Below, piece by piece: positions 5,837-42,039 of a stretch of 64,000 nt of DNA. Numbering within the stretch: position 1 is the stretch's first letter; each line of letters opens with the position of its first letter. The notes beneath the pieces are model-generated. The model made no database searches. It was not told where the DNA came from and saw nothing but the letters and a program-made list of their open reading frames with translations. Made by a program: the position numbers and the translations under genes. Source of the stretch: an uncultured Naasia sp. (lineage in GTDB: Bacteria > Actinomycetota > Actinomycetes > Actinomycetales > Microbacteriaceae); contig CAJYYA010000010.1 of the NCBI GenBank assembly GCA_913778905.1, positions 372,001 through 436,000 of the forward strand, read 5' to 3'.

Positions 5837-6930
5837 CTGCTCAGCCACTCGAGGTAGAAGGTCCCGACACCCGCGGCGGTCAGCAAGCCGCCGATGATCC
5901 AGAACCGCACGACGACCGTCACCTCGGCCCAGCCCTTGAGCTCGAAGTGATGGTGCAGCGGGCTCATGAGGAAGATGCGTTTGCCACGCGTCACCTTGAA
6001 GTACGCCCGCTGCAGGATGACCGAACCGACGACGATGACGAAGAGTCCGCCGATGAGCACGAGCAGCAACTCGGTGCGGCTGAGCACGGCGAGAGCGGCG
6101 AGAGCGCCACCGATGCCCAGGGAACCGGTGTCACCCATGAAGATCTGCGCCGGCGAGGTGTTCCACCAGAGGAACCCGATGAGCGCCCCGACGATGGCGG
6201 TCGCGACGATCGCGAGGTCCAGCGGATCCCTCACGTCATAGGCCTTGTACATCACGTCCGGATCGATCGTCGCCGAGAAGGCGTACTGGTTGTTCTGCCA
6301 GAAGCCGATGATCACGTAGGCGCCGATGGCGAAGATGGAGGCTCCCGTCGCCAGGCCGTCGAGACCGTCGGCGACGTTCACGCCGTTGGAGGCGCTCGTC
6401 ACGATGCCGGCGATCCAGATGATGTACACGATGACCCCCGCGACAGCGCCGAACATCATGACGAAGTCGAAGCGCGTGTCGCGGAAGAGGGAGATCGCTG
6501 TCGTGGCGGGGGTCAGCCCGTCGCGGTTCGGGAACTGCAGGGCGAGCAGAGCGAACGCCGTGGCGACGATGACCTGCCCGAGGATCTTGGCCCAGCCGCC
6601 GAGACCGAGGCTGCGCTGGTTCCGGGTCTTGAGGAAGTCGTCGAGGAAGCCGACGGCCCCGAGCCCCACCATCATGAACAGCACGAGCAGACCGGAGATC
6701 TGGATGGGCTCGGCGCTCGTGATGGTGCCCGTGAAGTATCCGACCACAGTGCCGGCGATGATCACGAGACCGCCCATGGTGGGCGTGCCGTGCTTGGCGT
6801 GGTGGCTGGTCGGTCCGTCCTCGCGGATGAACTGACCCCATTCGATCTTCTTGAACAGCCGGATGAACACCGGGGTCAGGAAGAGGGTGAAGAGGAGCGA
6901 GACCGCCCCGGCTGTCAGAAGCGCTTGCAT
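5833..6930 (-). CDS. mraY: MraY, phospho-MurNAc-pentapeptide transferase
   Basis: MraY moves phospho-MurNAc-pentapeptide onto undecaprenyl phosphate to make lipid I. The 365-residue protein is almost wholly hydrophobic, consistent with about ten membrane helices. It carries [16 protein letters not shown], the aspartate-rich [16 protein letters not shown] loop, and [12 protein letters not shown], and ends with the [13 protein letters not shown] histidine motif. All catalytic motifs are intact. Its start overlaps the murF 3' end by 16 bp. Confidence 0.96.
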
Positions 6931-8336
6931 GACACCAGTTCTCCGAGTCGGTCGCCGAGGAACCGCAGCCCGGCGGAGTTGGAGGACTTCACCAGCACGA
7001 GGTCGCCCGCGCGCAGCATGTCCGCGACCAGGTCGTAGGCCTCGTCGGCGGTCGCGACCCAGCGCGACTCACCGTCCCAGGAACCCTCCTTCTCGGCGGC
7101 GAGGTGCAGACGCTTGGCGCCTTCCCCCACCACGACCAGCTGCGACACGTTGAGGCGCACCGCGAGAAGGCCGATGCGGTCGTGCTCCTCGCCGGAGAGG
7201 TCGCCGAGCTCGGTCATCTCACCGAGGATCGCGATGGTGCGTGTCGCCTCGGTGCCGAGAATGGCGAGCGTCTTGAGAGCGGCGGCCATCGAATCGGGGC
7301 TCGCGTTGTAGGCGTCGTTGATGACGGCCGTGTCGAGGCCGGGCAGGACCTCCATGCGCCAGCGTTCGGCCCGGGTCACGCTCTCGAGGCCGGCCACGAT
7401 GTCGTCGCCACTCACTCCGAGCTCGTGCGCCGCGGTCGCCGCGGCCAGAGCGTTGGTCACGTGATGCTCGCCGAGCACCCGGAACTGCACGGGGCGGGGC
7501 TCCTCCCCCGGCAGCAGCAGCCGGAACGAGGTCCCGCTCGTGTCGACACGCACCGAGTCGGCACGCACGTCCGCCGCCGGGCTCTGACCGAAACGCACCA
7601 CGCGGGCCGCAGTCTTGTCGGCCATGCCGTTCACCCTGGGGTCGTCGACGTTCAGGACCGCGACGTCGGTGGGCTCGAGGTCCGCCACCATCTCCGTCTT
7701 CGTCTTGAGCGTCCACTCGATGCCGCCGAACTCGCCCGCGTGGGCCAGGCCCACCGTCAGGACGATGCCCACATCCGGCTTTGCCATGCGGATGAGCCGG
7801 GTGATCTCGCCCTTGCCCGACGCGCCCATCTCGAGCACGAGGAAACGGGTGTCCTCGGTGAGCTTGAGCATCGTGAGCGGGGCGCCCACCTCGTTGTTGA
7901 ACGACTCGCGCGGGGCCACCGTCGCGCCCACGCGCGAGAGGATCGCGTCGAGCAGGTTCTTGGTCGTGGTCTTCCCGTTCGAGCCGGTGACCGCGGCCAC
8001 CTTGAGGTCACCGCGCTCCCGTACACGACGCACCACATACGTCGCCAGCGCACCGAGCGCCTCGGTCGCGTCCTCGACGACGACCTGCGCCACCGCGATC
8101 TCGAGGGGCCGTTCGACGATCAGGAGCGCAGCCCCGTTCTCGACGGCGGCGGGCGCGAAGAGATGCCCGTCCGTGGCCTCGCCGCGACGCGCGACGAAGA
8201 TGCCGCCGGGCTTTATCTCGCGGGAATCGGTCTCGACGGTGCCGGAGACCTTGGTCTCCGACATGTCCGGGCTGTCGCCGAGTTCCAGCCGACCTCTCGT
8301 GGCCTCGGCGATCTCCGCCAGTGTCAGGGCGATCAC
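6915..8336 (-). CDS. murF: MurF, UDP-MurNAc-tripeptide--D-Ala-D-Ala ligase
   Basis: MurF finishes the UDP-MurNAc pentapeptide by adding D-Ala-D-Ala. The 473-residue product begins [15 protein letters not shown] at the GTG of 8336, which overlaps the murE stop as GTGA. The ATP loop is [10 protein letters not shown], and the later [11 protein letters not shown] motif is typical of MurF. The frame stays open far upstream of this start, but that part is antisense-free noise inside murE and carries no family similarity. Confidence 0.95.
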
Positions 8337-9880
8337 TCTTCGCCTCCGTCCCAGCCCGCTTCGCGCAGGGCCAGACGGGCATCGTCGCGTGCCGAGTAGG
8401 GGTGCTTCACTCCGGAGATCTCCTGGTAGTCCTCGTGTCCGGGGCCCGCGTAGAGCACCGTGTCGCCCTCCCGGGCGAGCGAGATGGCGAGGCGCAGCGC
8501 CTCGCGGGGGTCCGCGACCTCGTGGATCTCGCGCTCGGGAACAGCCGCGCGCGCGGCGTTCACGAGTGTCGTCCGGATCGCGGCGGGGTCCTCGTAGCGC
8601 GGGTGGAAGTCGGTCACGATCACGACATCGGAGCCGCGAGCCGCGATCGCGCCCATGTCGGCGCGCTTGGTCCTGTCGCGATCGCCATCGGCACCGAAGA
8701 CCATGATCAGCTTGCCCGGCGTGAGCGGCCGCAGGGCGTCGAGCGTGTTGAGGAACGCATCGGGGGTGTGCCCGTAGTCGATGAAGACGGTGGGGCCGCT
8801 GTCGCCCGAGACGCGCTCGGCACGTCCGGGGATGTAGACCTGGATGCCGCCGTCGCGACTCAGCGCGTGCTGCACCGCCTCCGCCTCGAAGCCGGCCTCG
8901 ACCAGCATGACGAGGGCCAGCGCGGCGTTCGCGGCCATGAACCAGCCGAAGAGCGGCACGCGGGTCTCGATGACCGTTCCGCCGGGCCCGGTGAGGGTGA
9001 AGTCGGTGTGCAGGCGGTCCTCGACGGTGACCTCGACCCGCCAGTCGGCCTCGACCGTCGTCCCCGTCGCGAGCGTCGTCACCGGCACCCGGCTCTCGTC
9101 GGCCAGACGGCGACCCCACGGCCCGTCGACCGTCACGACGGCCTTGCGGGCGCGATCGGGGTCGAACAGAGCGCGCTTGGCCTCGAAGTACTCCTTCATG
9201 TCGCCGTAATCGTCGAGATGGTCGTGGCTCAGGTTGGTGAAACCGACGACGTCGAAGACCACGCCGTTCACGCGACCGCGGGTGACGGCCTGAGCCGACA
9301 CCTCGATGGCGGCGGCGCGGGCCTCGTTCTCGCGCATGCGGGCGAGGAGTCCGTGGAGCTCGCTCGCTTCGGGCGTCGTGAGCGACGCCGAGACGACCTG
9401 ATCCCCGACTCGACGCTCCGCGGTGGAGCTGAGCCCCGTGCGAACGCCGAGCTGACGCAGCACGGCCTCGAGCAGATAGACGACGCTCGTCTTGCCGTTC
9501 GTCCCGGTCACGCCGAAGGTCAGCGGCGGGTGCTCGTCCGTGCGATAGATCCAGGCCGAGACCTCGCCGAGCGCACCGCGCGGGTCGGCCGTGATGAGGA
9601 CCGGGATGCCGAGGTCGCCTGCGCGGTCCGCTCCGGCTGAATCCGTCAGCAGAGCCGTGGCCCCGGCGTCCCGAGCCTGGCCGGCGAAATCGGCGCCGTG
9701 CGAGCGCGCACCGGGGAGTCCGACATACAGGTCGCCGTCTTCCACAGCCCGCGAATCGAGGCAGACGCCTCGGATCTCCTCGTCGTCGAGATCGCCGCGC
9801 ACGTCGAAGTCGAACACCCGCGCGAGCTCGGCGAGCGAGCGGGGAACGGGATGTTCGGGTCGGATGGTCGAGTTCGTCAG
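8333..9880 (-). CDS. murE: MurE-type ligase adding the third stem-peptide residue
   Basis: MurE adds the position-3 amino acid to UDP-MurNAc-L-Ala-D-Glu. The ATP loop is GTNGKTSVVYLLEA. Where DAP-adding enzymes have DNPR, this one reads DFHPR (8611-8597), so the substrate is probably not meso-DAP. That fits Microbacteriaceae walls, which use Lys, Orn, homoserine or diaminobutyrate, but the substrate cannot be told from sequence. The start is unusual. Family-typical residues IRPEHPVPRSLAELA lie in frame upstream of the first GTG (9817), and the only plausible start for them is a CTG at 9880 with AGAGGA about 8 nt before it. With that start the protein is 515 residues; from the GTG it is 494. 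Confidence 0.88.
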   Translation of the reverse strand: MTNSTIRPEHPVPRSLAELARVFDFDVRGDLDDEEIRGVCLDSRAVEDGDLYVGLPGARSHGADFAGQARDAGATALLTDSAGADRAGDLGIPVLITADPRGALGEVSAWIYRTDEHPPLTFGVTGTNGKTSVVYLLEAVLRQLGVRTGLSSTAERRVGDQVVSASLTTPEASELHGLLARMRENEARAAAIEVSAQAVTRGRVNGVVFDVVGFTNLSHDHLDDYGDMKEYFEAKRALFDPDRARKAVVTVDGPWGRRLADESRVPVTTLATGTTVEADWRVEVTVEDRLHTDFTLTGPGGTVIETRVPLFGWFMAANAALALVMLVEAGFEAEAVQHALSRDGGIQVYIPGRAERVSGDSGPTVFIDYGHTPDAFLNTLDALRPLTPGKLIMVFGADGDRDRTKRADMGAIAARGSDVVIVTDFHPRYEDPAAIRTTLVNAARAAVPEREIHEVADPREALRLAISLAREGDTVLYAGPGHEDYQEISGVKHPYSARDDARLALREAGWDGGEE

Positions 9881-9952
9881 TTCCGGCGTCCTCTTCTACT
9901 GATCGTGGATCCCGCGTGCTGCGAGTCCCTCGGGACTCTCTCGCAGTCGGTC

Positions 9953-11707
9953 TCAGAACTCCGTCGGGATGTCGGGAGAGCTGGACCCCGACGGGACCAC
10001 CCGGTTGGCCTTGAGCACCTGGGTCATCACGTCGCGGAAGATCGGCGCGGTGGCGCCGGACGTATTCATGTTAACCGGGTCGGCCAGGTTGACCGAGACG
10101 ACATACTGCGGGTCGTCCGCCGGAGCGAGACCCGCCATCGAGACGAGATAGCTCTTCGTGTAGCCGCCGTTGCCGTCGGGCTGCTGGGCCGTACCGGTCT
10201 TGATGCCCACCCGGTACCCGGGGATCTCGACCTGGCTCGCCAGCCACCCCTTGGTGGCGACGTTCTCCAGCATGTCGACCGTCGTGCGGGCGGCCTGCTC
10301 CGAGATGACCCGCGTCCCGTCGGTCGAAGGGACCTGCGTCATGGTGCCGTCGGGCAGACGGCAACCGGCGACGAGCGACACGGGCATGCGCACTCCCCCG
10401 TTGCCGATGGTCTGGTAGACGCTGGCCATCTGCACCGCGCTGGTCGTCATACCCTGACCGAACATCGTGGTCAGGTTGGTCTGAGCGTCCCAGTTCGGGA
10501 CACCGTCGGTCACCGATCCGAGGTCGCCGCCGTCCTCGGCCAGGAAGCCCGCGGCCGTGGGCTGCCCCAGTCCGAATCTGGTCATGTAGTCGTACCGCTC
10601 GGTGGCCGGCATCTTGAGGCCGAGCTGCGACATCCCCGTGTTGCTCGACTCCTTGAGCACGCCCGTCGCGGTCAGGTCCAGGGTCCCGTGGAACTCGCTG
10701 TCGTTGACATCGGCTCCGTCCTCCGTCTGCAACCGGTAGGGCGTCACCACCTGGGTCGTGGGCGACACGAGACCGGCGTCGAGGAGCGATGCCATCGTGA
10801 GGGTCTTCTCGGTCGATCCGGGCTCGAAGGGAGCGGTGAACGCACGCGATCCCCACGCGGGGTCGGCGCTCTGCGCCATGGCGTTGACGTTGTTCGGATC
10901 GACGCTGGGGTAATCGGCGACGGCGACGAGACGGCCCGTCTTCACCTCCTGCACGATGATGATGCCCCAGCGTGCGCCGTACTTCTGCGCGTATTTGGCG
11001 AGCGTCTGCTGGGTGTACCACTGCAGGTCGGAATCGATCGTGAGCACGACGTCGTCGCCCTGCTTGGCCTGCTTGGTGACGACCTCGCTGCCGGGGATGC
11101 GGACGCCGTCCTCGCTGCGCTCGTAGACCTCGGAACCGTCCTCACCGGCGAGGCAGGAGTCCTGGCTGATCTCGAGACCGGCCTGGGGCTCGTTCTCGGA
11201 GCCGACGAACCCGGTGAGGTTGCCGGCCACCGCACCGTTCGGATAGGTGCGGGACGGCTGGGCCTTGTAGGTCAGCCAAGGGATCTCGAGCGCGCGGATC
11301 GCCTCGAACGCGGGCACGTCCACCTTCTTGGCGATGTACAGGAAGTCGGAGTCCGCGTTGTCGGTGATCGAGGCGAGGATGTCCGTGGCCGGCACACCGA
11401 GAATCGGCGCGAGTTGCTCGGCCCCCTGCTGAGGCGTCACGCTCTGGTTCTTGACCGCCATCCGCGGCGACGCCTGGATGTCGTACCGCATGACGCTCGC
11501 GGCGAGCACCTTGCCGTCGGCCGCATAGATGTCACCCCGCATCCCGACGACGTCGCTCGAGATGCTGCGCTTGTCGAGCGCCTCCTCGTTGAGTGTCGAA
11601 GCCCGGACGACCTGGATGTCGACGAGTCGGATCACGAAGACCGACACGAGCGCCATGACGAGCAGGGCTCCGAGCAGCAGACGGCGACGGTGGGATCGTC
11701 GGGTCAT
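9953..11707 (-). CDS. ftsI: FtsI / PBP3, septal transpeptidase
   Basis: This class B penicillin-binding protein cross-links septal peptidoglycan in partnership with FtsW. The 584-residue protein has a short Arg-rich cytoplasmic tail and one membrane helix (about residues 10-28), then the dimerisation domain and the transpeptidase domain. The active-site serine is in STEK (Ser298), followed by SSN and KTGT. A strong AGGAGG lies 7 nt before the ATG. It follows ftsL and is separated from murE by about 70 bp. Confidence 0.94.
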   Translation of the reverse strand: MTRRSHRRRLLLGALLVMALVSVFVIRLVDIQVVRASTLNEEALDKRSISSDVVGMRGDIYAADGKVLAASVMRYDIQASPRMAVKNQSVTPQQGAEQLAPILGVPATDILASITDNADSDFLYIAKKVDVPAFEAIRALEIPWLTYKAQPSRTYPNGAVAGNLTGFVGSENEPQAGLEISQDSCLAGEDGSEVYERSEDGVRIPGSEVVTKQAKQGDDVVLTIDSDLQWYTQQTLAKYAQKYGARWGIIIVQEVKTGRLVAVADYPSVDPNNVNAMAQSADPAWGSRAFTAPFEPGSTEKTLTMASLLDAGLVSPTTQVVTPYRLQTEDGADVNDSEFHGTLDLTATGVLKESSNTGMSQLGLKMPATERYDYMTRFGLGQPTAAGFLAEDGGDLGSVTDGVPNWDAQTNLTTMFGQGMTTSAVQMASVYQTIGNGGVRMPVSLVAGCRLPDGTMTQVPSTDGTRVISEQAARTTVDMLENVATKGWLASQVEIPGYRVGIKTGTAQQPDGNGGYTKSYLVSMAGLAPADDPQYVVSVNLADPVNMNTSGATAPIFRDVMTQVLKANRVVPSGSSSPDIPTEF

Positions 11708-32170: not shown

Positions 32171-32822
32171 GACGACCTCCTCGGCTGTCCACATTATCCG
32201 AAACGGAATGCGACTCGCCGACCGGAGCCCGCACGAGGGCTGAGGCCTGCACCGCGTACCGGATGCCGGCCCACCAGTAGAGGAAGGTCCCCCAGATGGC
32301 GAACGCCCACCCGATGGGCCCGGCGACGGGTGCCAGAACGGGGAACGCCACCACCAGAACGATGATGGGCAGCGCGTAGAAGAGGCAGAAGGTCGCCACC
32401 TTGCCGAGGCGACTCACCGGCAGCGTTGCGGCGCGTCCCGAGGCCCTGAGGCGGGCGGCCACCGCCACGAGGAGCAGATCGCGCCCGACGATCAGGGCCA
32501 CGAGCCACCAGGGAATCGTGCCCCTCAAGGCGAGAGCGACGACGGCCGCCACGATGTAGAGCCTGTCGGCGGCCGGATCGAGGACCTGCCCGAGGCGCGT
32601 GACCTGTCGCAGCCGACGGGCCAGGTAGCCGTCGAGGAAGTCGGTGACAGCCGATGCCACGAGCACCAGCAGGGCCTCGACATCGAGGCCGGCGAGGAGC
32701 AGCGCAAAGAAGACCGGGACGAGCAGCAGACGCACGGAACTGAGGATGTTCGGGACGGTGACGATCCGGTCGGAGATCTCGGCAGCGCCCGGGGCGGCAC
32801 GCCCGTCGGTCTCGGATCCCAT
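32160..32822 (-). CDS. CDP-alcohol phosphatidyltransferase (PgsA-like)
   Basis: A 220-residue integral membrane enzyme of phospholipid head-group synthesis. The family signature DGYLARRLRQVTRLGQVLDP continues into AAD, giving the required DGxxAR...G...D...D pattern. Several hydrophobic helices surround it. The product is most likely phosphatidylglycerol phosphate, as for pgsA2 of the same mycobacterial locus, but the alcohol acceptor cannot be told. The ATG at 32822 is preceded by TAAGAT and the 12-bp palindrome AGATCCGGATCT. Confidence 0.88.
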   Translation of the reverse strand: MGSETDGRAAPGAAEISDRIVTVPNILSSVRLLLVPVFFALLLAGLDVEALLVLVASAVTDFLDGYLARRLRQVTRLGQVLDPAADRLYIVAAVVALALRGTIPWWLVALIVGRDLLLVAVAARLRASGRAATLPVSRLGKVATFCLFYALPIIVLVVAFPVLAPVAGPIGWAFAIWGTFLYWWAGIRYAVQASALVRAPVGESHSVSDNVDSRGGRHGD

Positions 32823-32907
32823 AGATCCGGATCTTATCCGGACGGCTCGATCCGTCTCCGGGGGCGATGGACGGCGGATTGTCGGAGGCGAGGAGCATGA
32901 TCCCCTC

Positions 32908-34056
32908 ATGCGCCGTTCCATCGTCCCGCCCTATCTCCTCTCCCGGATCGCCGACGACGGCGGGCGGTACGACAGGCATGCCGCCGCTCGTGCAGCCCGG
33001 CGCACTCTCGCGGAGACCGCTTCGCTGAAGGAGCAGCGGATGGCGCTGCACCCCGCCTCGCTCTCCCCCGGCACCGCCGGCGATCGGCGTCGCACCGCAC
33101 TGGCGGATCGGACGTCGACGCCAGCTCAGCACCCCGCGCCGACACGGACGATCAGTGACGCCGGCAGCGAGGAACGACTGCCGGGTGAAGTCGTGCGGCG
33201 CGAAGGACAGTCGCCGATCGGCGACTCCGCCGCGGACGAGGCCTACGACGGGCTCGGCGCCACCTTCGCGCTTCTCGCCGACGCATTCGGACGGGACAGC
33301 ATCGACGGCAGAGGCCTGCCGCTCGACGCGACCGTGCACTACGGCCGGGACTACGACAATGCGTTCTGGGACGGTGCACGGATGGTGTTCGGCGATGGCG
33401 ACGGCGAGGTGTTCCGCCGCTTCACCGTCTCGCTATCGGTCATCGGGCACGAGTTGGCTCACGGCGTGACCCAGTTCACCGCCGGCCTGGAATACGAAGG
33501 GCAGTCCGGCGCACTCAACGAGTCGGTCTCCGACGTCTTCGGAGTCATGGTCGAACAGCATGCTCGCGGGCAGCGCGTCGACGAGGCCGACTGGCTCATC
33601 GGGGCCGGCCTCTTCACCGACGAGGTGCAGGGACGCGCTCTGCGGTCGATGAGCGCACCGGGCACCGCGTACGACGACGACATGCTGGGGCGCGATCCGC
33701 AGCCCGCCCACATGGATCTCTATGTCGAGACGGACGACGACAACGGCGGTGTCCACATCAACTCGGGGATCCCGAACCGGGCCTTCCATCTCGCTGCGAC
33801 GGCCATCGGCGGGACGAGCTGGGAGGGTGCCGGCCGGGTCTGGTACCGGGCGCTCACCTCTGGAACGGTCCCGGTTCGAGCTGATTTCGCTCTTTTCGCC
33901 GGAATCACCTGGGCCACGTCGCGTGAGCTGTTCGGATCCTCTGCACGGGAGGCCGAAGCGGTGGCGGACGCCTGGCGGACCGTCGGCGTCGAGCCGCGAC
34001 ACGCTCCGGAGGAGACGGGCGATAGGGCTCGACGACGCGGAACGAACGCGCCATGA
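32908..34056 (+). CDS. Protealysin-like M4 metalloprotease
   Basis: A 382-residue thermolysin-family zinc protease with HELAH (181-185) and the third ligand Glu205 in GALNESVSD. The N-terminus carries PPYLL, the marker of the short protealysin-type propeptide, and there is no signal peptide, so it is probably cytoplasmic or exported non-classically. The next gene encodes an emfourin-like inhibitor and overlaps it by 4 bp. The ATG at 32908 is taken because it directly precedes the PPY motif; GAGGAG lies about 13 nt upstream. Confidence 0.9.
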   Translation: MRRSIVPPYLLSRIADDGGRYDRHAAARAARRTLAETASLKEQRMALHPASLSPGTAGDRRRTALADRTSTPAQHPAPTRTISDAGSEERLPGEVVRREGQSPIGDSAADEAYDGLGATFALLADAFGRDSIDGRGLPLDATVHYGRDYDNAFWDGARMVFGDGDGEVFRRFTVSLSVIGHELAHGVTQFTAGLEYEGQSGALNESVSDVFGVMVEQHARGQRVDEADWLIGAGLFTDEVQGRALRSMSAPGTAYDDDMLGRDPQPAHMDLYVETDDDNGGVHINSGIPNRAFHLAATAIGGTSWEGAGRVWYRALTSGTVPVRADFALFAGITWATSRELFGSSAREAEAVADAWRTVGVEPRHAPEETGDRARRRGTNAP

Positions 34057-34292
34057 TCACCGTTCGTGTCATCCGGAGCGGTGGCGTGGCGGGCATCACC
34101 CGGGAGTGGACCATCCTGCTCGACGAGGACGACTGGAATCGCCTGCTCGATGAAGCACCCGAGCCCGACAGAGGCCGAGCCGATCGTTTCGTCTATCGGG
34201 TCCGGGCGCTGCGTCATGAGGTGGTCATCCCCGAATCGCGACTCGAAGGACCGTGGCGCGACCTGGTGGAGCGTGCGAGAAGCACCGGCTGA
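34053..34292 (+). CDS. Emfourin-like inhibitor of the adjacent M4 protease
   Basis: A 79-residue protein whose start, MITVRVIRSGGVAGITREW, matches the emfourin (M4in) family, small inhibitors encoded beside protealysin-like proteases. The ATG overlaps the protease stop (ATGA at 34053-34056), so the two are translationally coupled, as expected for an enzyme/inhibitor pair. Inhibition of this particular protease is inferred from family and context. Confidence 0.8.
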   Translation: MITVRVIRSGGVAGITREWTILLDEDDWNRLLDEAPEPDRGRADRFVYRVRALRHEVVIPESRLEGPWRDLVERARSTG

Positions 34293-34306
34293 CAGGCCCG
34301 AGACGC

Positions 34307-35215
34307 TCACACCAGGGCGTCGAGCAGTCCCCAGAGACGCATCGGCGAGAGGATCGACGCGCCGCGACGCTCGGCCTCGGCAGCCAGCGCACGGTCGGCT
34401 GTCACCAAGATCGCATCGGGGGCGGGTTCGCCTCCGAGGTAGTCGAGGATCGCGCTGTCGCCGTCCTCATGCGCGCGTTCGACCACGACACCGGGCCTGT
34501 AAGCGGCGGCATCGCGCGCCTCGCCTTCGAGCACCAGACGCACCTCGGGCCACCAGTGGGTGTGCGGCAGTTGGAGATCGGCCGCGGGGACACCGGCCTG
34601 CACGAGCAGGGCGAGCCGGTCGGCGAGGCGTTCACTCGCTCCGGGCCGATCCTTCCACCAGCCGTCGGGACGGGCGCCGACGACATTCGCCGCGTCGACC
34701 ACGAGCACAGGGCGAGCGGCGAGAGCCGGCCGCAGGCGCGGCCAGGACTCCACCAGGCCGGGGTGGAGGTCGAGGGACGCCACCTCGCCGACAGGTACCC
34801 AGGCGAGCTCATCGCTCTCGGCATCGCCGATCACGGGCACGAAGGCATCCTGAACCGACGCGACGACCGTCGTGTAGTGCCAGGGAGAGAGGTCGAGCCG
34901 ACTGGTGAAGCGCACACGGAGTCGGTCCGCGGGGACTCCGGCCTCCTCATGGGCTTCGCGGACGGCACCCTCGACGGCCGACTCGTCCTCGTGGCGGGCC
35001 CCACCGGGGAGGCCCCAGGTGCCGCCGAAGTGGCTGTAGCCGGCGCGCTTCTGCAGGAGGACGCCCGCGGGCGACACCAGCAGAAGACCCGCGGCCCCGA
35101 AGGTTCCCCAGAACCGACGGCCGTCCGGCAGCTGGACCCACGCGTCACCGGAACCCAGCGGTCGCCGGGCATGCGCACCGGGAGCGGCCGATACAGACGT
35201 CTTCGGATCATCCAC
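34307..35215 (-). CDS. NUDIX hydrolase fused to an NYN/PIN-like domain
   Basis: A 302-residue two-domain protein. The N-terminal part has an intact NUDIX box, GARHEDESAVEGAVREAHEE (72-91), completed by AG. The C-terminal half (about 167-302) begins VLVVDAANVVGARPDGWWKD and ends with ILVTADRALAAEAERRGA, the pattern of NYN/PIN-like RNases with their conserved acidic residues. Substrates are unknown; the pairing suggests nucleotide or RNA-cap-like turnover. The GTG at 35215 lies 17 bp from the divergent S4 gene start, and AAGACT ends 6 nt upstream, so the mRNA is probably leaderless. Confidence 0.85.
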   Translation of the reverse strand: MDDPKTSVSAAPGAHARRPLGSGDAWVQLPDGRRFWGTFGAAGLLLVSPAGVLLQKRAGYSHFGGTWGLPGGARHEDESAVEGAVREAHEEAGVPADRLRVRFTSRLDLSPWHYTTVVASVQDAFVPVIGDAESDELAWVPVGEVASLDLHPGLVESWPRLRPALAARPVLVVDAANVVGARPDGWWKDRPGASERLADRLALLVQAGVPAADLQLPHTHWWPEVRLVLEGEARDAAAYRPGVVVERAHEDGDSAILDYLGGEPAPDAILVTADRALAAEAERRGASILSPMRLWGLLDALV

Positions 35216-35232
35216 CGGCTTAGTCTTCCACC
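35216..35232. promoter_or_regulatory. 17-bp divergent promoter with overlapping -10 elements
   Basis: Only 17 bp separate the GTG of the NUDIX-NYN gene from the ATG of the S4 gene. TAGTCT (35221-35226, plus) and AAGACT (35227-35222, minus) overlap, each ending 6 nt before its start codon. There is no room for a Shine-Dalgarno on either side, so both mRNAs should be leaderless, and the -35 regions must lie inside the opposite coding sequences. Confidence 0.65.
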
Positions 35233-35661
35233 ATGGCCTCAGCGCGAGATGGATCCGGGAGCGTGCCCACTGGGTCGGCCGAGCGCGTCTCGGTCCGGGT
35301 GGACAGCTGGCTCTGGGCCGTTCGTCTGACCTCGACGCGTGCGGCCGCCACCGCCGCGGCTCGTGCAGGCCATGTGCGCATCCGCGGCGAGCGGGTGAAG
35401 GCGTCGGCCCCCGTACGGATCGGCGACGAGGTACGGCTGCGGGTCAACGGATTCGACCGCATCGTCATCGTTGAGCGGCTCATCGTCAAGCGCGTCGGCG
35501 CGCCCGTCGCGGCCCAATGCCTGACCGACCTCACTCCCCCGCCGCCACCGCGAACGAGTGTCCCCGTCGCGGTGGTGCGGGACCGTGGCGCCGGCCGCCC
35601 GACCAAGCGCGAACGCCGCGAGATCGATCGCCTGCTCGGCCGCGACACCGACCAGCACTGA
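35233..35661 (+). CDS. S4-domain RNA-binding protein (Hsp15-like)
   Basis: A 142-residue protein with an S4 RNA-binding fold: VRVDSWLWAVRLTSTRAAATAAARAGHV, split here across helix 1 and helix 2, then VRIRGERVKASAPVRIGDEV. The C-terminus is basic (GAGRPTKRERREIDRLL). E. coli Hsp15 of this family binds stalled 50S subunits carrying nascent chains; the same role is plausible here. The ATG is leaderless by TAGTCT spacing. Confidence 0.88.
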   Translation: MASARDGSGSVPTGSAERVSVRVDSWLWAVRLTSTRAAATAAARAGHVRIRGERVKASAPVRIGDEVRLRVNGFDRIVIVERLIVKRVGAPVAAQCLTDLTPPPPPRTSVPVAVVRDRGAGRPTKRERREIDRLLGRDTDQH

Positions 35662-35684
35662 ACGTCCTGCGAGTCCATCGCGGA

Positions 35685-35954
35685 TCATTCGTAGACGCGC
35701 GTCAGCCGCCATCCCGTCGGGCATTCCGCCTCGACGATCTCGAACATCAGGGACATCCCCGACGGGGTGGTCCCCTGGAAGCGCCACCCGACGACCCGTC
35801 TCGCGGCATGCGTGAGTTGCGGCGCCCACGTCTCCTCGCTGATGGGCGTCGGCTCGTCGGAGACTCGATACCGCACGCCGTCCCACACCAGACGAGCCGG
35901 CACTCCGCCGACCATCCACACGGCGACCTCGGCCGCGAGTGTCCCGATTCCCAT
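35685..35954 (-). CDS. Small SOS-controlled protein, DUF6504-like
   Basis: An 89-residue protein starting MGIGTLAAEVAVWMVGG, with ARLVWDGVRYRV in the middle and the ending GWRLTRVYE. The layout resembles DUF6504 proteins, which usually accompany the ImuA/ImuB/DnaE2 mutasome genes; none of those is nearby. The ATG at 35954 is preferred over one at 35972 because AGGAG lies 8 nt upstream of it and the earlier ATG sits in the operator. A perfect LexA-type box lies 19 bp upstream. Biochemical function is unknown. Confidence 0.72.
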   Translation of the reverse strand: MGIGTLAAEVAVWMVGGVPARLVWDGVRYRVSDEPTPISEETWAPQLTHAARRVVGWRFQGTTPSGMSLMFEIVEAECPTGWRLTRVYE

Positions 35955-35972
35955 GGTCACCACTCCTGACAT

Positions 35973-35994
35973 TCGAACATGTGTTCGAATGCTA
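35973..35994 (-). promoter_or_regulatory. LexA/SOS box with adjacent -10 hexamer
   Basis: TCGAACATGTGTTCGA (35973-35988) is an exact match to the actinobacterial SOS operator TCGAACNNNNGTTCGA, and the palindrome extends to ATTCGAAC/GTTCGAAT. On the minus strand TAGCAT (35994-35989) abuts it, so bound LexA would cover the transcription start of the small DUF6504-like gene. The Pr6Pr gene starts 63 bp away on the other strand and might also be affected. Confidence 0.88.
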
Positions 35995-36056
35995 GACCCG
36001 TGGGATCCGACACGCCAGGGGAAGCGGACAAGTCCGGGGAACTACCCTTGACTCAC

Positions 36057-36692
36057 ATGGCTCGGGTGACGATCGGCTGCGTCCGACTCGTGCTCGCGGG
36101 AACCGGCATCGTGGCGCTCATCGCCCGCTTCCTCTACGGCCAGACCTTCAGAACGTTCCAGTCCATCGACTTCTTCGGCTATCTGACGGTGCAGAGCAAC
36201 ATGGCCGCCGTCGTGATCGCGACCCTGGCGGGCATCGTCGCTCTGCGAGGCCGCACCGAATCACGAGCCCTCTCGACGGCACGTGCCGTCGTGACGAGCC
36301 TCCTGCTCGTCGCGGGGATCGTCTTCGCACTCATGGTTCTCCAGGCACCAGCGGCCGGCTACCGCATCGACGTGCCGTGGTCGGACCAGATCCTGCACTT
36401 CGTCCTGCCCGCCGCCACCCTCGCCGACTGGGTGCTCGCTCCGGGACGGCAGCGGGTGCGATGGCGTTCGCTCGGCATCACCCTCGGCTACCCGGTGGTA
36501 TGGGGCGTCGCCACGCTGATCCGCGGAAGCATCGTCGGGTGGTATCCCTACTTCTTCCTCGATCCGGCTCAGGCGGGCTACCCGACGCCCTTCATCCTCT
36601 TCTCGGCGGCGGCGCTCGGACTCTTCGCCGCGGTACAGGCGTGCCTGGTCGGCATCGGTCGGCTGCGCAGCCCCTTCGCCTCGGGGCCGTGA
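36057..36692 (+). CDS. Pr6Pr family six-helix membrane protein
   Basis: A 211-residue protein with about six membrane helices, including FFGYLTVQSNMAAVVIATL early and the DQILHFVLPAATLADWVL motif mid-protein, matching the Pr6Pr (FAR-17a/AIG1-like) membrane family. The function is unknown. The ATG at 36057 lies 8 nt after TACCCT (36043-36048), close to the leaderless arrangement seen elsewhere in the window. It converges with the amine oxidase gene 13 bp downstream. Confidence 0.82.
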   Translation: MARVTIGCVRLVLAGTGIVALIARFLYGQTFRTFQSIDFFGYLTVQSNMAAVVIATLAGIVALRGRTESRALSTARAVVTSLLLVAGIVFALMVLQAPAAGYRIDVPWSDQILHFVLPAATLADWVLAPGRQRVRWRSLGITLGYPVVWGVATLIRGSIVGWYPYFFLDPAQAGYPTPFILFSAAALGLFAAVQACLVGIGRLRSPFASGP

Positions 36693-36705
36693 GGCGATGA
36701 AGCCG

Positions 36706-38130
36706 TCAGGATGCGGGAGGGGCCGCCAGTTCCGCGAACGGTTCGAGACTCCTCTGCACGGCCGCCGCGACGCCGGTGTCGTCGAGTTGACCGAGCGCGG
36801 ACGCCTGATCCCCCGCCACCGTGCCGACGAGGATCGGGGCTCCCGTCGATGGTTCGAGGTTGAGCCAATCGGTGATCGGGAGGTCTGACCCGACCACCGC
36901 CCAGCGCTCGGCATCGGTCTTCCAGAACGCGGTGTCGAACCGCACCCACACGGTGTCCACGACGCCGACCCCCAGGTCGGCCACCGCCGTCCGATAGCCA
37001 AAGGGAAGAGCCGGCTGGAACGCGATCCCCTGCTCCTTGAGAACTCCGAGCGGCACGGTGACGACCACGCGGTCGACATTGAGCGATTCACCGGTGACGA
37101 GCCGGATGCTCACGCCGGAGTCGCTGTAGCTGATGGCGGTGACGGCGGTCGCGAGCCACACCTTGAGGTCGGCGAGGGCGGAACTAACGACGGTGGCGTA
37201 GCGCCCGGTGACCCGCTCGGCATCGGGCGCAGGGTTCTGCGCGGCGCCGTACCAGGAGGAGAGGGACGCCGCCGAGGCCCCCCGGGCGACGCCGACGCTG
37301 CGCCGCAGTTCCGTCTCGAGCCAATCCGCCGGTGTGGGCGGATCCCCGGCCGAGTCGAGATCGCCTGCTCCGGACCCGGTCAGGGCCGCCTCGAGCGAGG
37401 CGTCGCGCGACTGCTGCTGCGCCCAGGCGATCGCATCCGCGACCGCACGCTCGCCCCGATCGGAGAAGGCCGTCTCGGCGGGCGCCGAGGAGATGTAGCG
37501 GACGTCGGCCGCGATGGAGCGCCGGGATACGTCCAAGGCCGCGAGGCGATCCGAGATGGCCGACCCGTCGCGCGGCGCCCATCCCGACCCCAGCTCGACG
37601 GGCACGGGCCAGGCGTCCAGAGCACGGGTATCGACGCGGCCTCCGACACGGTCGCGAGCCTCGATGACGGTGACCTCGAGGCCGTAGTCGTTGAGTCTCG
37701 ACGCGGCAGCCGCCCCCGCGAAACCGGCCCCGATGACGGCGACGCGCTCGTTCTGGCCGGCTACCGACGCAACCTCGGCGGCCGCGCGGATGCCGGACTC
37801 CCAGGCGCCTTCGACGGTGCCGGGCGACTCGTCGCTCGTCGCCTCGCCCGCGAAATAGACCCGTGCGCCCAGCGGCTGCCGCAGGGTGGCGCGCAGCGCA
37901 GGCGACCCTCCGACCGCGATGAAGCTGTGCGATCCTCGCGCGAACTCGTCGGCTCCCCACGAACTGCGGAGTACCTCTGACGGTGTCGGAACGAGACTCG
38001 GCGGCAACGTCGCCGCAGTCCGGGTCGGGGAGGGTGCCGGCTCAGGTGTGGTCGGCGTGCATGCGGTCAGGACGAGTGTCGCGGCTCCGGTCGCGGCACC
38101 GACCAGGAAGTTGCGCCGTGAGAGTGCCAT
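36706..38130 (-). CDS. Exported flavin amine oxidase with circularly permuted domain order
   Basis: A 474-residue protein with a twin-arginine/lipoprotein signal (SRRNFLVG, lipobox LTAC with Cys24). The FAD-binding Rossmann motif VAVIGAGFAGAAAASRL (130-146) and EARDRVGGRVDT come only after a block (about 56-120: RSSWGADEFARGSHSF, VYFAGEATSDESPGTVEGAW). In ordinary flavin monoamine oxidases that block forms the C-terminal end of the FAD site. The protein stops soon after SLEPFAEL, just where that block would normally follow. All parts of the fold are present, so a permutation is likelier than a truncation. Substrate unknown. Confidence 0.83.
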   Translation of the reverse strand: MALSRRNFLVGAATGAATLVLTACTPTTPEPAPSPTRTAATLPPSLVPTPSEVLRSSWGADEFARGSHSFIAVGGSPALRATLRQPLGARVYFAGEATSDESPGTVEGAWESGIRAAAEVASVAGQNERVAVIGAGFAGAAAASRLNDYGLEVTVIEARDRVGGRVDTRALDAWPVPVELGSGWAPRDGSAISDRLAALDVSRRSIAADVRYISSAPAETAFSDRGERAVADAIAWAQQQSRDASLEAALTGSGAGDLDSAGDPPTPADWLETELRRSVGVARGASAASLSSWYGAAQNPAPDAERVTGRYATVVSSALADLKVWLATAVTAISYSDSGVSIRLVTGESLNVDRVVVTVPLGVLKEQGIAFQPALPFGYRTAVADLGVGVVDTVWVRFDTAFWKTDAERWAVVGSDLPITDWLNLEPSTGAPILVGTVAGDQASALGQLDDTGVAAAVQRSLEPFAELAAPPAS

Positions 38131-38194
38131 GCTGCCCACCACCCTATGCGGATCCGTCCGATGACGGGCTCGACGGCGCGCGCCCGGAGAACAA

Positions 38195-38232
38195 CGATGC
38201 CCACCTGCGCGAAGAACGCGCGGTGGGCATCG
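38195..38232 (-). terminator. Terminator of the cold-shock gene
   Basis: CGATGCCCACC (38195-38205) pairs with GGTGGGCATCG (38222-38232), with an inner GCGCG/CGCGC stem and an AAGAA loop. It lies about 40 bp past the cold-shock stop codon, and the minus strand continues TTGTTCTCC. Confidence 0.7.
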
Positions 38233-38270
38233 TGTCAAGCATCATCCGTCCGCACTGCGGACGGGGAGTC

Positions 38271-38474
38271 TCAGATGACGCGGATGTTGGCGGCCTGCGG
38301 GCCCTTGTTTCCGGGGGTCACCTCGAACTCGACGCGCTGGTTCTCCTCGAGCGAGCGGAAGCCGCTGGCCGCGATGGCGGAGTAGTGCGCGAACAGGTCG
38401 GGACCCTGGTCATCGGGAGCGATGAAGCCGAAGCCCTTTTCGGAGTTGAACCACTTGACGACGCCAGTAGGCAT
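38271..38474 (-). CDS. Cold-shock protein (CspA family)
   Basis: A 67-residue single cold-shock domain that binds single-stranded RNA/DNA. It opens [18 protein letters not shown] (RNP1 KGFGFI); RNP2 reads LFAHYSAI rather than the commoner VFVHFSAI. It is preceded by a long probable 5' UTR with a hairpin, as usual for csp mRNAs. Its upstream region is shared with the divergent FKBP gene. Confidence 0.95.
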
Positions 38475-38498
38475 ATCGATCTCTTTCGTTTCTTGTTG

Positions 38499-38521
38499 CG
38501 CCTCGTGAGTTCCACGAGGCG
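38499..38521 (-). promoter_or_regulatory. Hairpin in the probable 5' UTR of the cold-shock mRNA
   Basis: CGCCTCGTG (38499-38507) and CACGAGGCG (38513-38521) form a 9-bp perfect stem with a 5-nt loop, 25 bp upstream of the cold-shock start codon. Structured leaders regulate csp mRNAs in other bacteria; a regulatory role here is inferred. The remaining part of 38475-38715 is relatively AT-rich and should hold both divergent promoters. Confidence 0.45.
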
Positions 38522-38715
38522 GGTGTCACGCTGACTTCGCGTCCAAGAAACGCTGCCTTCGTCCACTCCCCCGGAGGAAGCGACCGGAACCGGCGCCTTC
38601 TAGATACACAACCCTCAACACAACTGCATAGGAAACGATACAGGCCAGCGGGCCGGACGGCCAGAGACTTCGCCTAAAGTGAGCGGGTTTGTTCATCTAT
38701 TCGGAAGTTGACCGC

Positions 38716-39696
38716 GTGCTCTCTCGCCCTCTCATCGCCATCGCCGCAGCCGCGACACTCGCCCTGAGCCTCGCCGCATGCTCGGGCGACGCCCCGGCTC
38801 CGACCGACACAACGGCCGCAGCGGACACGCAGACCGTCGTGGACGTCTGCGCGACCCCGTCCGGAGACGCCTCGAATTCCATCAAGGTGTCGGGCGACGC
38901 GGGTGCCGCTCCCACCGTGACATTCGACAAGGGCATCGCTCCGTCCGAGACGCAGCGCACGATCATCACCGAGGGCACCGGGGCGGAGCTCCCCTCCGGC
39001 GGGAGCGCCGAGGTGCACTACGCCATCTACAACGGCACCACCGGCGAGCTCATCGAGGCGTACGGTTTCGACGGAACGCAGAAGCCCGCCGTGTTCGCGG
39101 CCGACGTCACTCAGCTTCTCCCCGGTCTCGCGAAGACCATCGGTTGCCTGAAGGAGGGCACGCGTGTCGCGTCGGCCATTCCCGCCGCCGAGGCGTTCGG
39201 CGAGCAGGGCAATGAGCAGATCAAGGTCGGAGCGACCGACTCGATCGTGGCTGTCATCGACATCGTCTCGGTGATCCCGACGCGCGCCACCGGCGTCGAC
39301 CAGCCCGCGCCGGAGGGTCTGCCCACCGTCACGCTCGCGGACGACGGCGAGCCGAGCGTGACCATCCCCCAGACCGATGCGCCGACGGAATTCCAGCTCG
39401 GCGTCCTCAAGAAGGGCGACGGAGAGGTGGTCCCGGCCGGCGCGACCGTCACCGTGCAGTACTACGGCGTCAAGTGGAGCGACGGTCAGGTTTTCGACTC
39501 GAGCTGGCAGCGCGGCGCCCCCGCCTCGTTCTCTCTCAGCGCGGTGGTGCCCGGCTTCACGCAGGCCATCGAGGGCCAGACCGTCGGCTCCCAGGTCGTC
39601 GCGGTCCTGCCGCCGTCGGTCGCCTACGGCGGAACCGACAACGCGCTCGCGAACGAGACGCTCGTCTTCGTCATCGACATCCTCGCGGCCAACTGA
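38716..39696 (+). CDS. FKBP-type peptidyl-prolyl isomerase lipoprotein, two domains
   Basis: A 326-residue exported protein with a lipoprotein signal, SRPLIAIAAAATLALSLAAC, whose Cys would be lipidated. Two FKBP-like domains follow. The second is canonical (VTVQYYGVKWSDGQVFDSSW, VVPGFTQAIEGQTVGSQ, LPPSVAYGG), while the first is more divergent and may be inactive. It probably helps fold exported proteins. I take the GTG at 38716, which places the signal peptide at the N-terminus; a TTG at 38689 is the alternative. Confidence 0.88.
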   Translation: MLSRPLIAIAAAATLALSLAACSGDAPAPTDTTAAADTQTVVDVCATPSGDASNSIKVSGDAGAAPTVTFDKGIAPSETQRTIITEGTGAELPSGGSAEVHYAIYNGTTGELIEAYGFDGTQKPAVFAADVTQLLPGLAKTIGCLKEGTRVASAIPAAEAFGEQGNEQIKVGATDSIVAVIDIVSVIPTRATGVDQPAPEGLPTVTLADDGEPSVTIPQTDAPTEFQLGVLKKGDGEVVPAGATVTVQYYGVKWSDGQVFDSSWQRGAPASFSLSAVVPGFTQAIEGQTVGSQVVAVLPPSVAYGGTDNALANETLVFVIDILAAN

Positions 39697-39712
39697 CCCC
39701 TGATCCCGCCGA

Positions 39713-39752
39713 CAGCGGAAGCCGGTCGCCCTCGGGCGGCCGGCTTCTGCTG
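39713..39752. terminator. Bidirectional terminator between FKBP and YbaK genes
   Basis: CAGCGGAAGCCGG (39713-39725) pairs with CCGGCTTCTGCTG (39740-39752), and the inner CGCC/GGCG pairs extend the stem to a CTCG loop. It lies 17 bp after the FKBP stop and 36 bp from the convergent YbaK stop. Confidence 0.75.
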
Positions 39753-39787
39753 TTCGAGGGACGACGATGGCGCCCGCCCCCTCCCGA

Positions 39788-40282
39788 TCAGCGGCCGATG
39801 GCCGCCACGACCGCCGAGCAGACCGACACGAGATCGGCGGGGGCGATCTCGATCTCGAAACCACGCCGCCCGCCCGACACGAAGATGGTGGGGAACGTCA
39901 TCGCGGACTCGTCGAGAGCTGTCGGGAGGCGGGTCTTCTGACCCACCGGGCTGATGCCACCGGCGATGTAACCGGTTCTGCGCTCCGCCTCCCGCTGATC
40001 GGCGAGCTGCGCCTTCTTGCCGCGGAGCGCATCGGCGAGGGCCTTGAGGTCGAGTGAGCCGGAGGCGGGAACGACACCCACGGCCAGCTTCCCGTCGAGC
40101 GAGACGACGAGCGTCTTGAAGACTCGGGCGGGGTCGAGACCGAGCGCCTCCGCCGCTTCCGTCGCGTAACCGGCCGCCCGCGGGTCGTGTGTATAGGACA
40201 CCGTGGCGAAGGAGATGCCGGCGGCGGTCAACGCGGCGGTCGCGGGCGTCGCACCTTTCGCCGGGCCTGGGGATCGTGCCAT
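39788..40282 (-). CDS. ybaK: Cys-tRNA(Pro)/Cys-tRNA(Cys) deacylase YbaK
   Basis: A 164-residue YbaK/EbsC protein that hydrolyses mischarged Cys-tRNA(Pro). It has PARVFKTLVVSLDGKLAVGV, with the conserved catalytic-type Lys in FKTL, and TGYIAGGISPVGQKTRLP with the GGISP loop. The ATG at 40282 lies 6 nt after TAGCCT (40294-40289), a leaderless arrangement. Confidence 0.93.
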   Translation of the reverse strand: MARSPGPAKGATPATAALTAAGISFATVSYTHDPRAAGYATEAAEALGLDPARVFKTLVVSLDGKLAVGVVPASGSLDLKALADALRGKKAQLADQREAERRTGYIAGGISPVGQKTRLPTALDESAMTFPTIFVSGGRRGFEIEIAPADLVSVCSAVVAAIGR

Positions 40283-40308
40283 GACGCGAGGCTATCGCGA
40301 GGACGGAC

Positions 40309-42039
40309 TCACGCCTCGTCCACCATCAGCTCCTCGCGCACCTCGCGGCGAAGCACCTTGCCGAGCAGGGACTTCGGAAGGTCGTCGCGCAGGACTATGC
40401 GCTTCGGGACCTTGTAGCCCGCCAGCCGGGTGCGGCTGTACTCGCGGAGCGCGGCCTCATCGGCTCCCGCACCGTCCCGCAGGACGACCGCAGCGACGAC
40501 CATCTCACCGCCGTCCTCCCGCGGAAGTCCGACGACCGCAGCCGCCTCGACATCGGGGTGACTGAGAAGTGCCCCCTCCACCTCGGACGGCGAGACGTTG
40601 AAGCCGCCCGTGATGATGAGCTCCTTCCGGCGGTCGACGATCGTCACGAACCCGTCGTCGGCGACCGTCACGATGTCTCCGGTGCGCAGCCATCCTCCCG
40701 GAAGCAGCGTCTCGGCCGTCTCGCTCGGACGGCGCCAGTAGCCGCCGAACACCTGGGGTCCGCGCAGAAGCAACTCCCCCGGTCGGCCGCCGCCGACATC
40801 GATCGTCGGGTCGTCCGGGTCGACGACCCGGATCTCCGTGCTCGGAAACGGTACGCCGACGGTGCCCGGACGGCGGCTCGGGCCGATCGGGTTGCCGAGG
40901 GCGACGGGCGAGCTCTCGGTCATGCCGTACCCCTCGACCAGGAGCCCTCCGGTGGCCTCCTCCCAGCGGGACACGGTCGCGACCGGCAGGTTCATCGCGC
41001 CCGAGATGGCGAACCGCACGCTCGAGAGATCGACGCCGCGGGATGCGGCCGACCGGACGAGCTGGTCGTAAATGGGCGGAACGGCGGGCAGGAACGTCGG
41101 CGGCGACTTCTTGGCGGCGTCGAGCACCATCGACGCGTCGAAGCGGGGGAAGAGAACGAGGCGTGCGCCGATGCTCATGGCGAATGTGAGGCACAGCGTG
41201 AGTCCGTAGGCGTGGAAGAACGGGAGCACGCCGTAGAAGATCTCGGCCCCCTCCTCGAGTCCGGGCACCCAGGCACGCCCCTGCACGGCATTTGCGTGCA
41301 GGTTGCGATGGCTGAGGATGGCTCCCTTGGGCACCCCGGTCGTTCCGCTGGTGTACTGCAGAAGAGCCGTGTCCGAGGCGTCGGGATACGGGTGCTTGCG
41401 GCTGAGGCGTCGACCCTCGACGAGGTCCTTCCACTCGACGATTCCACGGGTGCGGGGACGGGCGGTCATCGCGGCCCGCGCCTCCCGGGCTTTCCTGACG
41501 GGGAGACGCAGGGCGAAACGCTTGCTGAACGGCAGGGCTTCCGAGATGTCGACGGCGACTATGCGGGCCGGTCGGACGTCCTTCGGGAACTCGGCGACGG
41601 TGTCGGCGATCTTGTCCCACACGATGGCGACCCGGGCTCCGTGATCCTCGAACTGATGGCGCAGCTCGCGGGCGGTGTAGAGCGGATTGTGCTCGACGAC
41701 GACGCCGCCGATGCGGAGCACGGCGTAGAACGCGATGACGTGCTGAGGGGCGTTGGGCAGGACCAGCGCGACCCGGTCACCGGCGGTCACACCCGCGCGG
41801 CGCAACCACTCGGCGGCACGCGCGATCAGGTCGCTCAACTCGGAATAGCGCGTCTCGGCGCCGAAGAACTCGAGCGCCACACGCCCATGGAAGCGCGAGG
41901 CCGCATCTTCCAGCATCTGAGGGAGCGAGGTCTGCGGGATCTCGATGCGGTCGGGTACCCCTGGCGCGTAGGCGGCCAGCCAGGGGCGGTCGGAGAGGGA
42001 CGGGGCGGAAGGCGTCTGGTGCGGCGTCTCGTCGGTCAC
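40309..42039 (-). CDS. Long-chain fatty acid--CoA ligase (AMP-forming)
   Basis: A 576-residue ANL-superfamily adenylate-forming enzyme with [11 protein letters not shown] (229-239), [10 protein letters not shown], the GWLRTGDI motif, and the C-terminal [13 protein letters not shown] with its catalytic lysine. Fatty acids are the probable substrates. It is distinct from the FadD15-like gene at 23084. The GTG at 42039 lies 6 nt after TACTGT (42051-42046), so the mRNA is probably leaderless. Confidence 0.92.

Follow-up and report, generated by a model that had tools for sequence, protein, structure and literature searches.

The window analysed here, a stretch of 64,000 nucleotides from an uncultured Naasia sp. 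(Microbacteriaceae), contains a gene for a predicted flavin amine oxidase in which the parts of the chain appear in an unexpected order. In the initial annotation, the block that normally closes the FAD site at the C-terminus was placed at residues 56-120, ahead of a Rossmann motif at residue 134, and a circularly permuted, exported enzyme was proposed. These positions hold, and the question raised by the locus is whether such an order is natural and inherited, and what it may imply for the activity and location of the protein. Each segment of the fold is present once, the order is rotated, and the cut and join are shared with homologues, and on these grounds the window protein is almost certainly a natural circular permutant.

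Organisation of the gene and its product

The front block spans SWGADEFARGSHSF...VYFAGEATSDESPGTVEGAWESGIRAAAEV and is placed after the tether, and the Rossmann motif VAVIGAGFAGAAAA follows the short linker (Table 1). Searches for promoter or terminator patterns in 35700-38700 and for Rfam matches in 35500-38700 found none.

Table 1. Features of the permuted oxidase locus, in window positions.
Feature	Position	Strand	Details and basis
Circularly permuted flavin amine oxidase gene (predicted)	36706..38130	minus	474 aa, ATG at 38130, stop 36706-36708; reading frame and profile matches
Signal, residues 1-24, with twin-arginine motif SRRNF and lipobox LTAC	38059..38130	minus	Sequence; both patterns in 24/24 proteins of alignment A1
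Pro/Thr/Ser-rich tether, residues 25-43	38002..38058	minus	Sequence and alignment A1
Canonical C-terminal FAD block, now first after the tether, residues 44-121 (345-422 in the canonical profile)	37768..38001	minus	Pfam, PDB and profile matches
Short linker from old C-terminus to old N-terminus, residues 122-129 (about 8 residues)	37744..37767	minus	Alignments
Rossmann part (N-terminal in canonical order) with the middle part, residues 130-463 (1-341 in the canonical profile)	36742..37743	minus	Profile matches
Thr393, aligned with the Lys that contacts the flavin in LSD/PAO enzymes	36952..36954	minus	LSD2 alignment and A3 column
Pr6Pr-family membrane protein, convergent neighbour	35979..36692	plus	NF038065, E 3.8e-37; stop codons of the two genes 13 bp apart

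Evidence for a permuted order

The window protein exceeds the gathering cut-off of the PF01593 (Amino_oxidase) model (174.2 bits against 19.8, E 7.7e-51) and remains within a known superfamily, with the match falling in two stretches. In a Pfam search of its own genome, the segment matching PF01593 366-442 (E 4.9e-17) precedes those matching 1-85 (E 8.9e-11) and 214-380 (E 4.1e-22), an arrangement other than the canonical one, in which the Rossmann part comes first and the FAD block last. Annotation with profiles reports such a protein as 'Amino_oxidase' in two stretches, and the rearrangement is thereby hidden. Among NCBIfam models, none of the best 25 of 42 reached its own cut-off for the window protein, and a search over the A1 proteins gave the same kinds of models.

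In a PDB search, residues 46-122 match the C-terminus of LSD2, and residues 126-166 and 302-459 match earlier parts of the same protein. The best solved relatives by sequence belong to the LSD/polyamine oxidase (LSD/PAO) branch, and include LSD1/LSD2, spermine oxidase and maize polyamine oxidase (PF01593; 4gu0 at E 2.4e-32, 7oxl and 1b37). These enzymes possess the same blocks and FAD motifs as the window protein, but in canonical order and with a lysine where the window protein has Thr393. A paralogue in the same genome (L002/L006; G000 C1:202044-203441, a frame of 488 aa) is also canonical in order, matching PF01593 1-443; it has no signal that could be seen by reading, and is 30% identical over residues 126-462.

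Against a canonical profile of length 424, built from 32 canonical-order relatives, the native protein is split at position 341/345, with profile 345-422 at residues 44-121 and profile 1-341 at residues 130-463. When the block is put back, profile positions 1-422 are matched in a single stretch (268.5 bits), whereas an arbitrary reordering used as a control again breaks into two stretches. Taken one at a time, the 32 canonical proteins give a median best-stretch score of 58 bits with the native and 108 bits with the reordered protein; one relative (L165) is matched in two stretches even by the reordered protein. Whole-sequence sums fail to tell the orders apart: they amount to 260.6 for the native protein, 268.8 for the reordered one and 253.8 for the arbitrary control, and the control even has slightly the highest sum against certain single proteins (e.g. 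L002). The evidence for permutation is therefore the colinear single stretch and not the whole-sequence sum.

A six-frame scan of positions 34001-40500 found the C-block, the N-block and the middle block once each below E 1, with E-values that are not independent, as the block profiles include the window protein. Taken together with the single-stretch match, this indicates that nothing is missing and nothing is doubled, in agreement with the initial annotation, in which all pieces were said to be kept once. Chance is excluded by the Pfam E-values and by the homologues described below. From the alignments, the moved residues 44-121 would close the FAD site in the permuted protein as they do in canonical order.

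Homologues and their distribution

The gene is matched in all nine genomes of the genus, in one piece in eight of them and split into two frames in G001. Among 398 genomes of the Microbacteriaceae, 152 give matches with E-values of 1e-20 or lower, a number that includes some canonical paralogues. In at least 133 of the 398, the match begins at residue 5 or earlier and extends beyond residue 150, and thus crosses the junction; this count, made by reading of the rows, is a lower bound because four candidates were scored per genome. By the same reading, junction-crossing matches occur in 31 of 85 genera.

Outside the family, a junction profile (A2, residues 48-168) gave junction-spanning matches in 4 genomes in the order search (396 genomes), 14 in the class search (394) and 4 in the phylum search (296), these searches overlapping in the genomes covered. 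Of the 22 genomes, 21 (all but G804) were fetched, and the C-block precedes the N-block in all 21. A weaker match with an internal stop, in G1222, proved to be a locus of canonical order (L090), and a search centred on this genome (11 genomes) returned only its own match. G739 has one weak junction-profile match (profile 25-121), also with a stop inside.

Sampling beyond the window's phylum was through plasmids and one genome-contig scan using patterns from the window protein itself. The scan gave eight loci, two of them permuted (L045 in Yonghaparkia, a member of the Microbacteriaceae, and L046 in Microcella) and six canonical in order or partial. For plasmid carriage, tblastn searches with three junction slices returned 87, 2 and 11 records, none with one place covering 80% of the query, and a megablast search with one junction slice, in a mode unsuited to this purpose, returned no match. 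When the junction profile was run against PDB sequences, none of the best stretches in the best 60 of 181 sequences crossed the junction. Among the matches listed in the open-licence literature (title and start of abstract), no permuted amine oxidase was found.

As judged from these comparisons, the permuted order is a conserved natural rearrangement rather than a one-off or an error. The initial annotation had called for a search for homologues with the same order, which are thus abundant, and had regarded the protein as unusual; as a one-protein oddity this does not stand, since the order recurs across the phylum.

Origin of the permuted order

From a single contig, an assembly error, a frameshift or a chimaera would be conceivable, in which a canonical gene lost its C-block by frameshift and has a foreign block in front, and two family copies are indeed broken into two frames (L021/L022 in G001 and L136 in G226), as pseudogenes or through sequencing error. 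However, the same order is found in the 133 or more family genomes and the 21 fetched loci outside the family, and the six frames nearby hold no second block, which together make an artefact extremely improbable. The specific case raised in the initial annotation, a second C-terminal copy lost through a local frameshift, was looked for in those frames and is rejected on the same evidence.

The positions of the cut and the join bear on the number of events. In 37 permuted sequences from all clades, canonical profile positions 340-351 mark the end of the N-terminal part (330 in L098), and the front block starts at 341-351, save for six sequences that reach upstream to 317-337; L078 has a gap within the N-terminal part. 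There is one common cut region, and the linkers are short. By reading, 26 of 32 canonical relatives have at most about 21 residues beyond the block, and in canonical relatives with no signal (e.g. L156-L158, L160 and L161) at most about 10 residues precede the Rossmann strand, as would fit if the old termini lie near each other in the fold.

A tree of 38 permuted sequences, set in canonical order, and 32 canonical sequences leaves room for the permutation to have arisen several times, independently and at the same loop, in separate actinobacterial lineages. In the maximum-likelihood tree, the permuted forms fall in four clades and four changes are needed; the bootstrap range is 3-5 changes, and a single permuted clade is present in 0 of 200 bootstrap trees. 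The deep branches are weakly supported, however, and a single clade is not rejected (AU p 0.122, or 0.135 without L104-L107). The same cut region in all clades, with similar linkers, favours one event, so that several origins are a minority possibility. A tandem-duplication intermediate, that is, a frame with two C-blocks, was not found among the fetched loci.

Export and anchoring

The initial annotation placed a Tat/lipoprotein signal in front of the protein, and both motifs are indeed present, as they are by pattern in all 24 A1 proteins, which are all from the window's family. At the 21 permuted loci outside the family, reading of the N-termini gave 16 Tat-like starts, 7 of them with a lipobox-like cysteine, and no signal at L092 and at L104-L107, a permuted clade for which the starts were chosen by script. 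The window protein is very probably an exported lipoprotein.

Six of the 32 canonical-order relatives (L080, L081, L151, L152, L154 and L159) also have Tat-lipoprotein-like starts by reading. These actinobacterial oxidases have the same blocks as the window protein, but the signal stands before the Rossmann strand and the C-block comes last. Export thus does not stem from the permutation, and the earlier suggestion that permutation could alter export finds no causal link, given these relatives and the signal-less permuted clade L104-L107. What the permutation does change is where the anchor joins the fold, namely at the loop of the cut and not at the Rossmann strand. That this moved anchor point alters substrate access, as was also suggested, is a guess.

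The Pr6Pr neighbour and other surrounding genes

The gene convergent with the oxidase belongs to the Pr6Pr family, a name that was not found in the open-licence literature. At 38 loci from the window's family (L108-L145), Pr6Pr is tail-to-tail with the oxidase in 35; of the others, L118 and L138 come from contigs some 3 kb long, and at L137 Pr6Pr is absent. The 3' ends of the two frames overlap in 28 of the 35 (including L136, in which the oxidase frame is broken), and in L114 the genes are 795 bp apart. L126 (7273-7989) and L113 (6646-8598) each have a second Pr6Pr-like frame, which flanks the oxidase gene on its opposite side.

A wider set comprised 76 permuted genomes covered by both searches. 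The best listed Pr6Pr match was taken for 72 of them, leaving out G020, G046, G211 and G224, which have partial oxidase matches only (the listed match in G224 being on another contig). Pr6Pr is convergent with the oxidase and within 1.1 kb in 70 of the 72 and on another contig in two (G052 and G182); it is convergent in all 70 entered genomes that have both on one contig. The Pr6Pr family was detected in 186 of 239 genomes, and four genomes without the oxidase were included for a fairly strong match (E 3.2e-35 or better), while many more have weaker ones. Because Pr6Pr is so widespread, the point is its position and not its mere presence. A search for Pr6Pr at 22 loci outside the family and at L137 found none. 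On the basis of this linkage, a working partnership of the oxidase with Pr6Pr is reasonably probable.

In an alignment of 24 Pr6Pr sequences, Thr70 and His140 are invariant. AIG1 and ADTRP are threonine hydrolases of fatty-acid esters, with a dependence on Thr and His (PMC8123165). The neighbour scores below the cut-off of the Far-17a/AIG1 model PF04750 (12.8 bits against 24.5, E 0.083) and is thus not assigned to it, and the model is matched at E 1 or better in 3 of the 24 members. A likeness of Pr6Pr to AIG1 may be suggested as a lead only.

Only in the genus (L141-L145) are the window's other neighbours found again together; elsewhere single ones turn up in scattered cases (e.g. FKBP at L111 and L125, S4 at L114 and L130). 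The window also contains an M4-type metallopeptidase-like frame (32644-34056, plus strand) with a HELAHG motif, which we take to be a sign of this type; homologues are found near the oxidase in L140, L142 and L143. Crude gene calls were obtained at 16 of the 17 loci tried, 16 of the 17 being outside the family (L137 gave no gene calls, and L106 was centred on the wrong frame), and no recurring neighbour outside the family was found except a glycosidase-like frame at L104 and L105. At these two loci (5027-7084 and 9242-11281, respectively), a signal-less permuted oxidase is tail-to-tail with a large glycosidase-like frame, as read from its first residues.

Active site and possible chemistry

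In an alignment of 46 permuted proteins (A3), G134, G136, G139, E157, G163, G164, R165, A94 and G95 are invariant. G134/G136/G139, E157 and G163-R165 correspond to the Rossmann GxGxxG motif, the acidic ribose residue and the GGR motif. These intact motifs point to FAD binding and to a preserved fold, and the window protein is likely to be an active flavoenzyme. Family membership makes an amine a somewhat favoured prediction for the substrate.

In LSD/PAO enzymes, a lysine contacts the flavin N5 through water. In the PDB alignment, Thr393 of the window protein aligns with this lysine in LSD2, and the A3 column contains K in 23 of the 46 rows, T in 13, S in 3, V, A and R in 2 each, and L in 1. 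The 18 rows from outside the family have 17 K and 1 R, and the 28 rows from the family have 6 K. Among 76 permuted rows placed on a tree, 22 have K and 54 have another residue (T/V/S/L/A/R/Q), all 54 being from the family. The fewest changes at this position number 7, and well-supported branches force at least 4, with losses and regains pooled in this count. The lysine was probably lost more than once within the window's family. With a threonine in its place, full oxidase chemistry of the window protein is doubtful; the reaction with oxygen may be weak, with electrons passing to another acceptor, and the protein may not share the chemistry of amine oxidases.

It is possible, if rather unlikely, that the permuted protein is no longer an oxidase at all, and that the Lys-less members are dehydrogenases whose electrons go to an acceptor in the membrane or in solution, perhaps together with Pr6Pr. 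The repeated changes at the lysine position, its retention outside the family (with arginine in the one exception) and the linkage to a membrane protein would all fit. Against this, Lys-bearing family members (e.g. L124, L127, L131 and L132) share the Pr6Pr neighbour, Pr6Pr shows no recognised redox motif (in NCBIfam and Pfam it matches only NF038065 and, below threshold, PF04750), and oxygen reactivity need not vanish by lysine loss alone. An inactive or structural descendant kept for binding could also have lost the flavin-contacting lysine, but the invariance of the FAD-binding residues across the permuted proteins makes such a pseudo-enzyme improbable.

Proposed explanation and implications

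Taken as a whole, the evidence is best explained if the protein is a true circular permutant of natural origin that belongs to the LSD/PAO branch and works outside the cell; a probability of roughly 0.8 may be given to this reading. The last 78 or so canonical residues, the segment that closes the FAD site, would be encoded first and joined by about eight residues to the old N-terminal Rossmann strand, and the chain would end where that block formerly began. A plausible route, of which no intermediate was seen, would begin with a Tat-exported gene being duplicated in tandem and in frame; the surplus sequence at the 5' and 3' ends would then have been lost, while the signal stayed in place. The protein would then fold with FAD in the cytoplasm, pass through the Tat system in the folded state and be held outside the membrane by a lipid anchor attached through the loop of the cut, not through the Rossmann strand, and the anchored protein would oxidise an amine there.

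LucY, which we take to be a MurB-type flavoprotein with a fold different from that of the window protein, offers a comparison in which permutants were engineered, whereas the window protein is a natural permutant. Ten permutants of this FAD protein were made, of which none was brighter than wild type and four were poorly expressed (PMC4408115).

A broader proposal can be put forward tentatively, and is rather less likely to be right than wrong. Here the permuted lineage would be ancient and phylum-wide; in the window's family it would be membrane-anchored and mostly Lys-less, and would work with the tail-to-tail Pr6Pr, a multi-pass membrane protein and itself possibly AIG1-like with its invariant Thr70 and His140, as a two-gene surface system and not as an ordinary amine oxidase.

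A large FAD enzyme that was permuted naturally, and that persists in many lineages alongside relatives of canonical order, offers a ready-made natural test of how important the order of the chain is for flavin loading, Tat export and orientation at the membrane. The convergent Pr6Pr gene and the loss of the lysine in most of the family members examined point to a specialised surface function, and Pr6Pr, an uncharacterised membrane family, gains a genomic partner.
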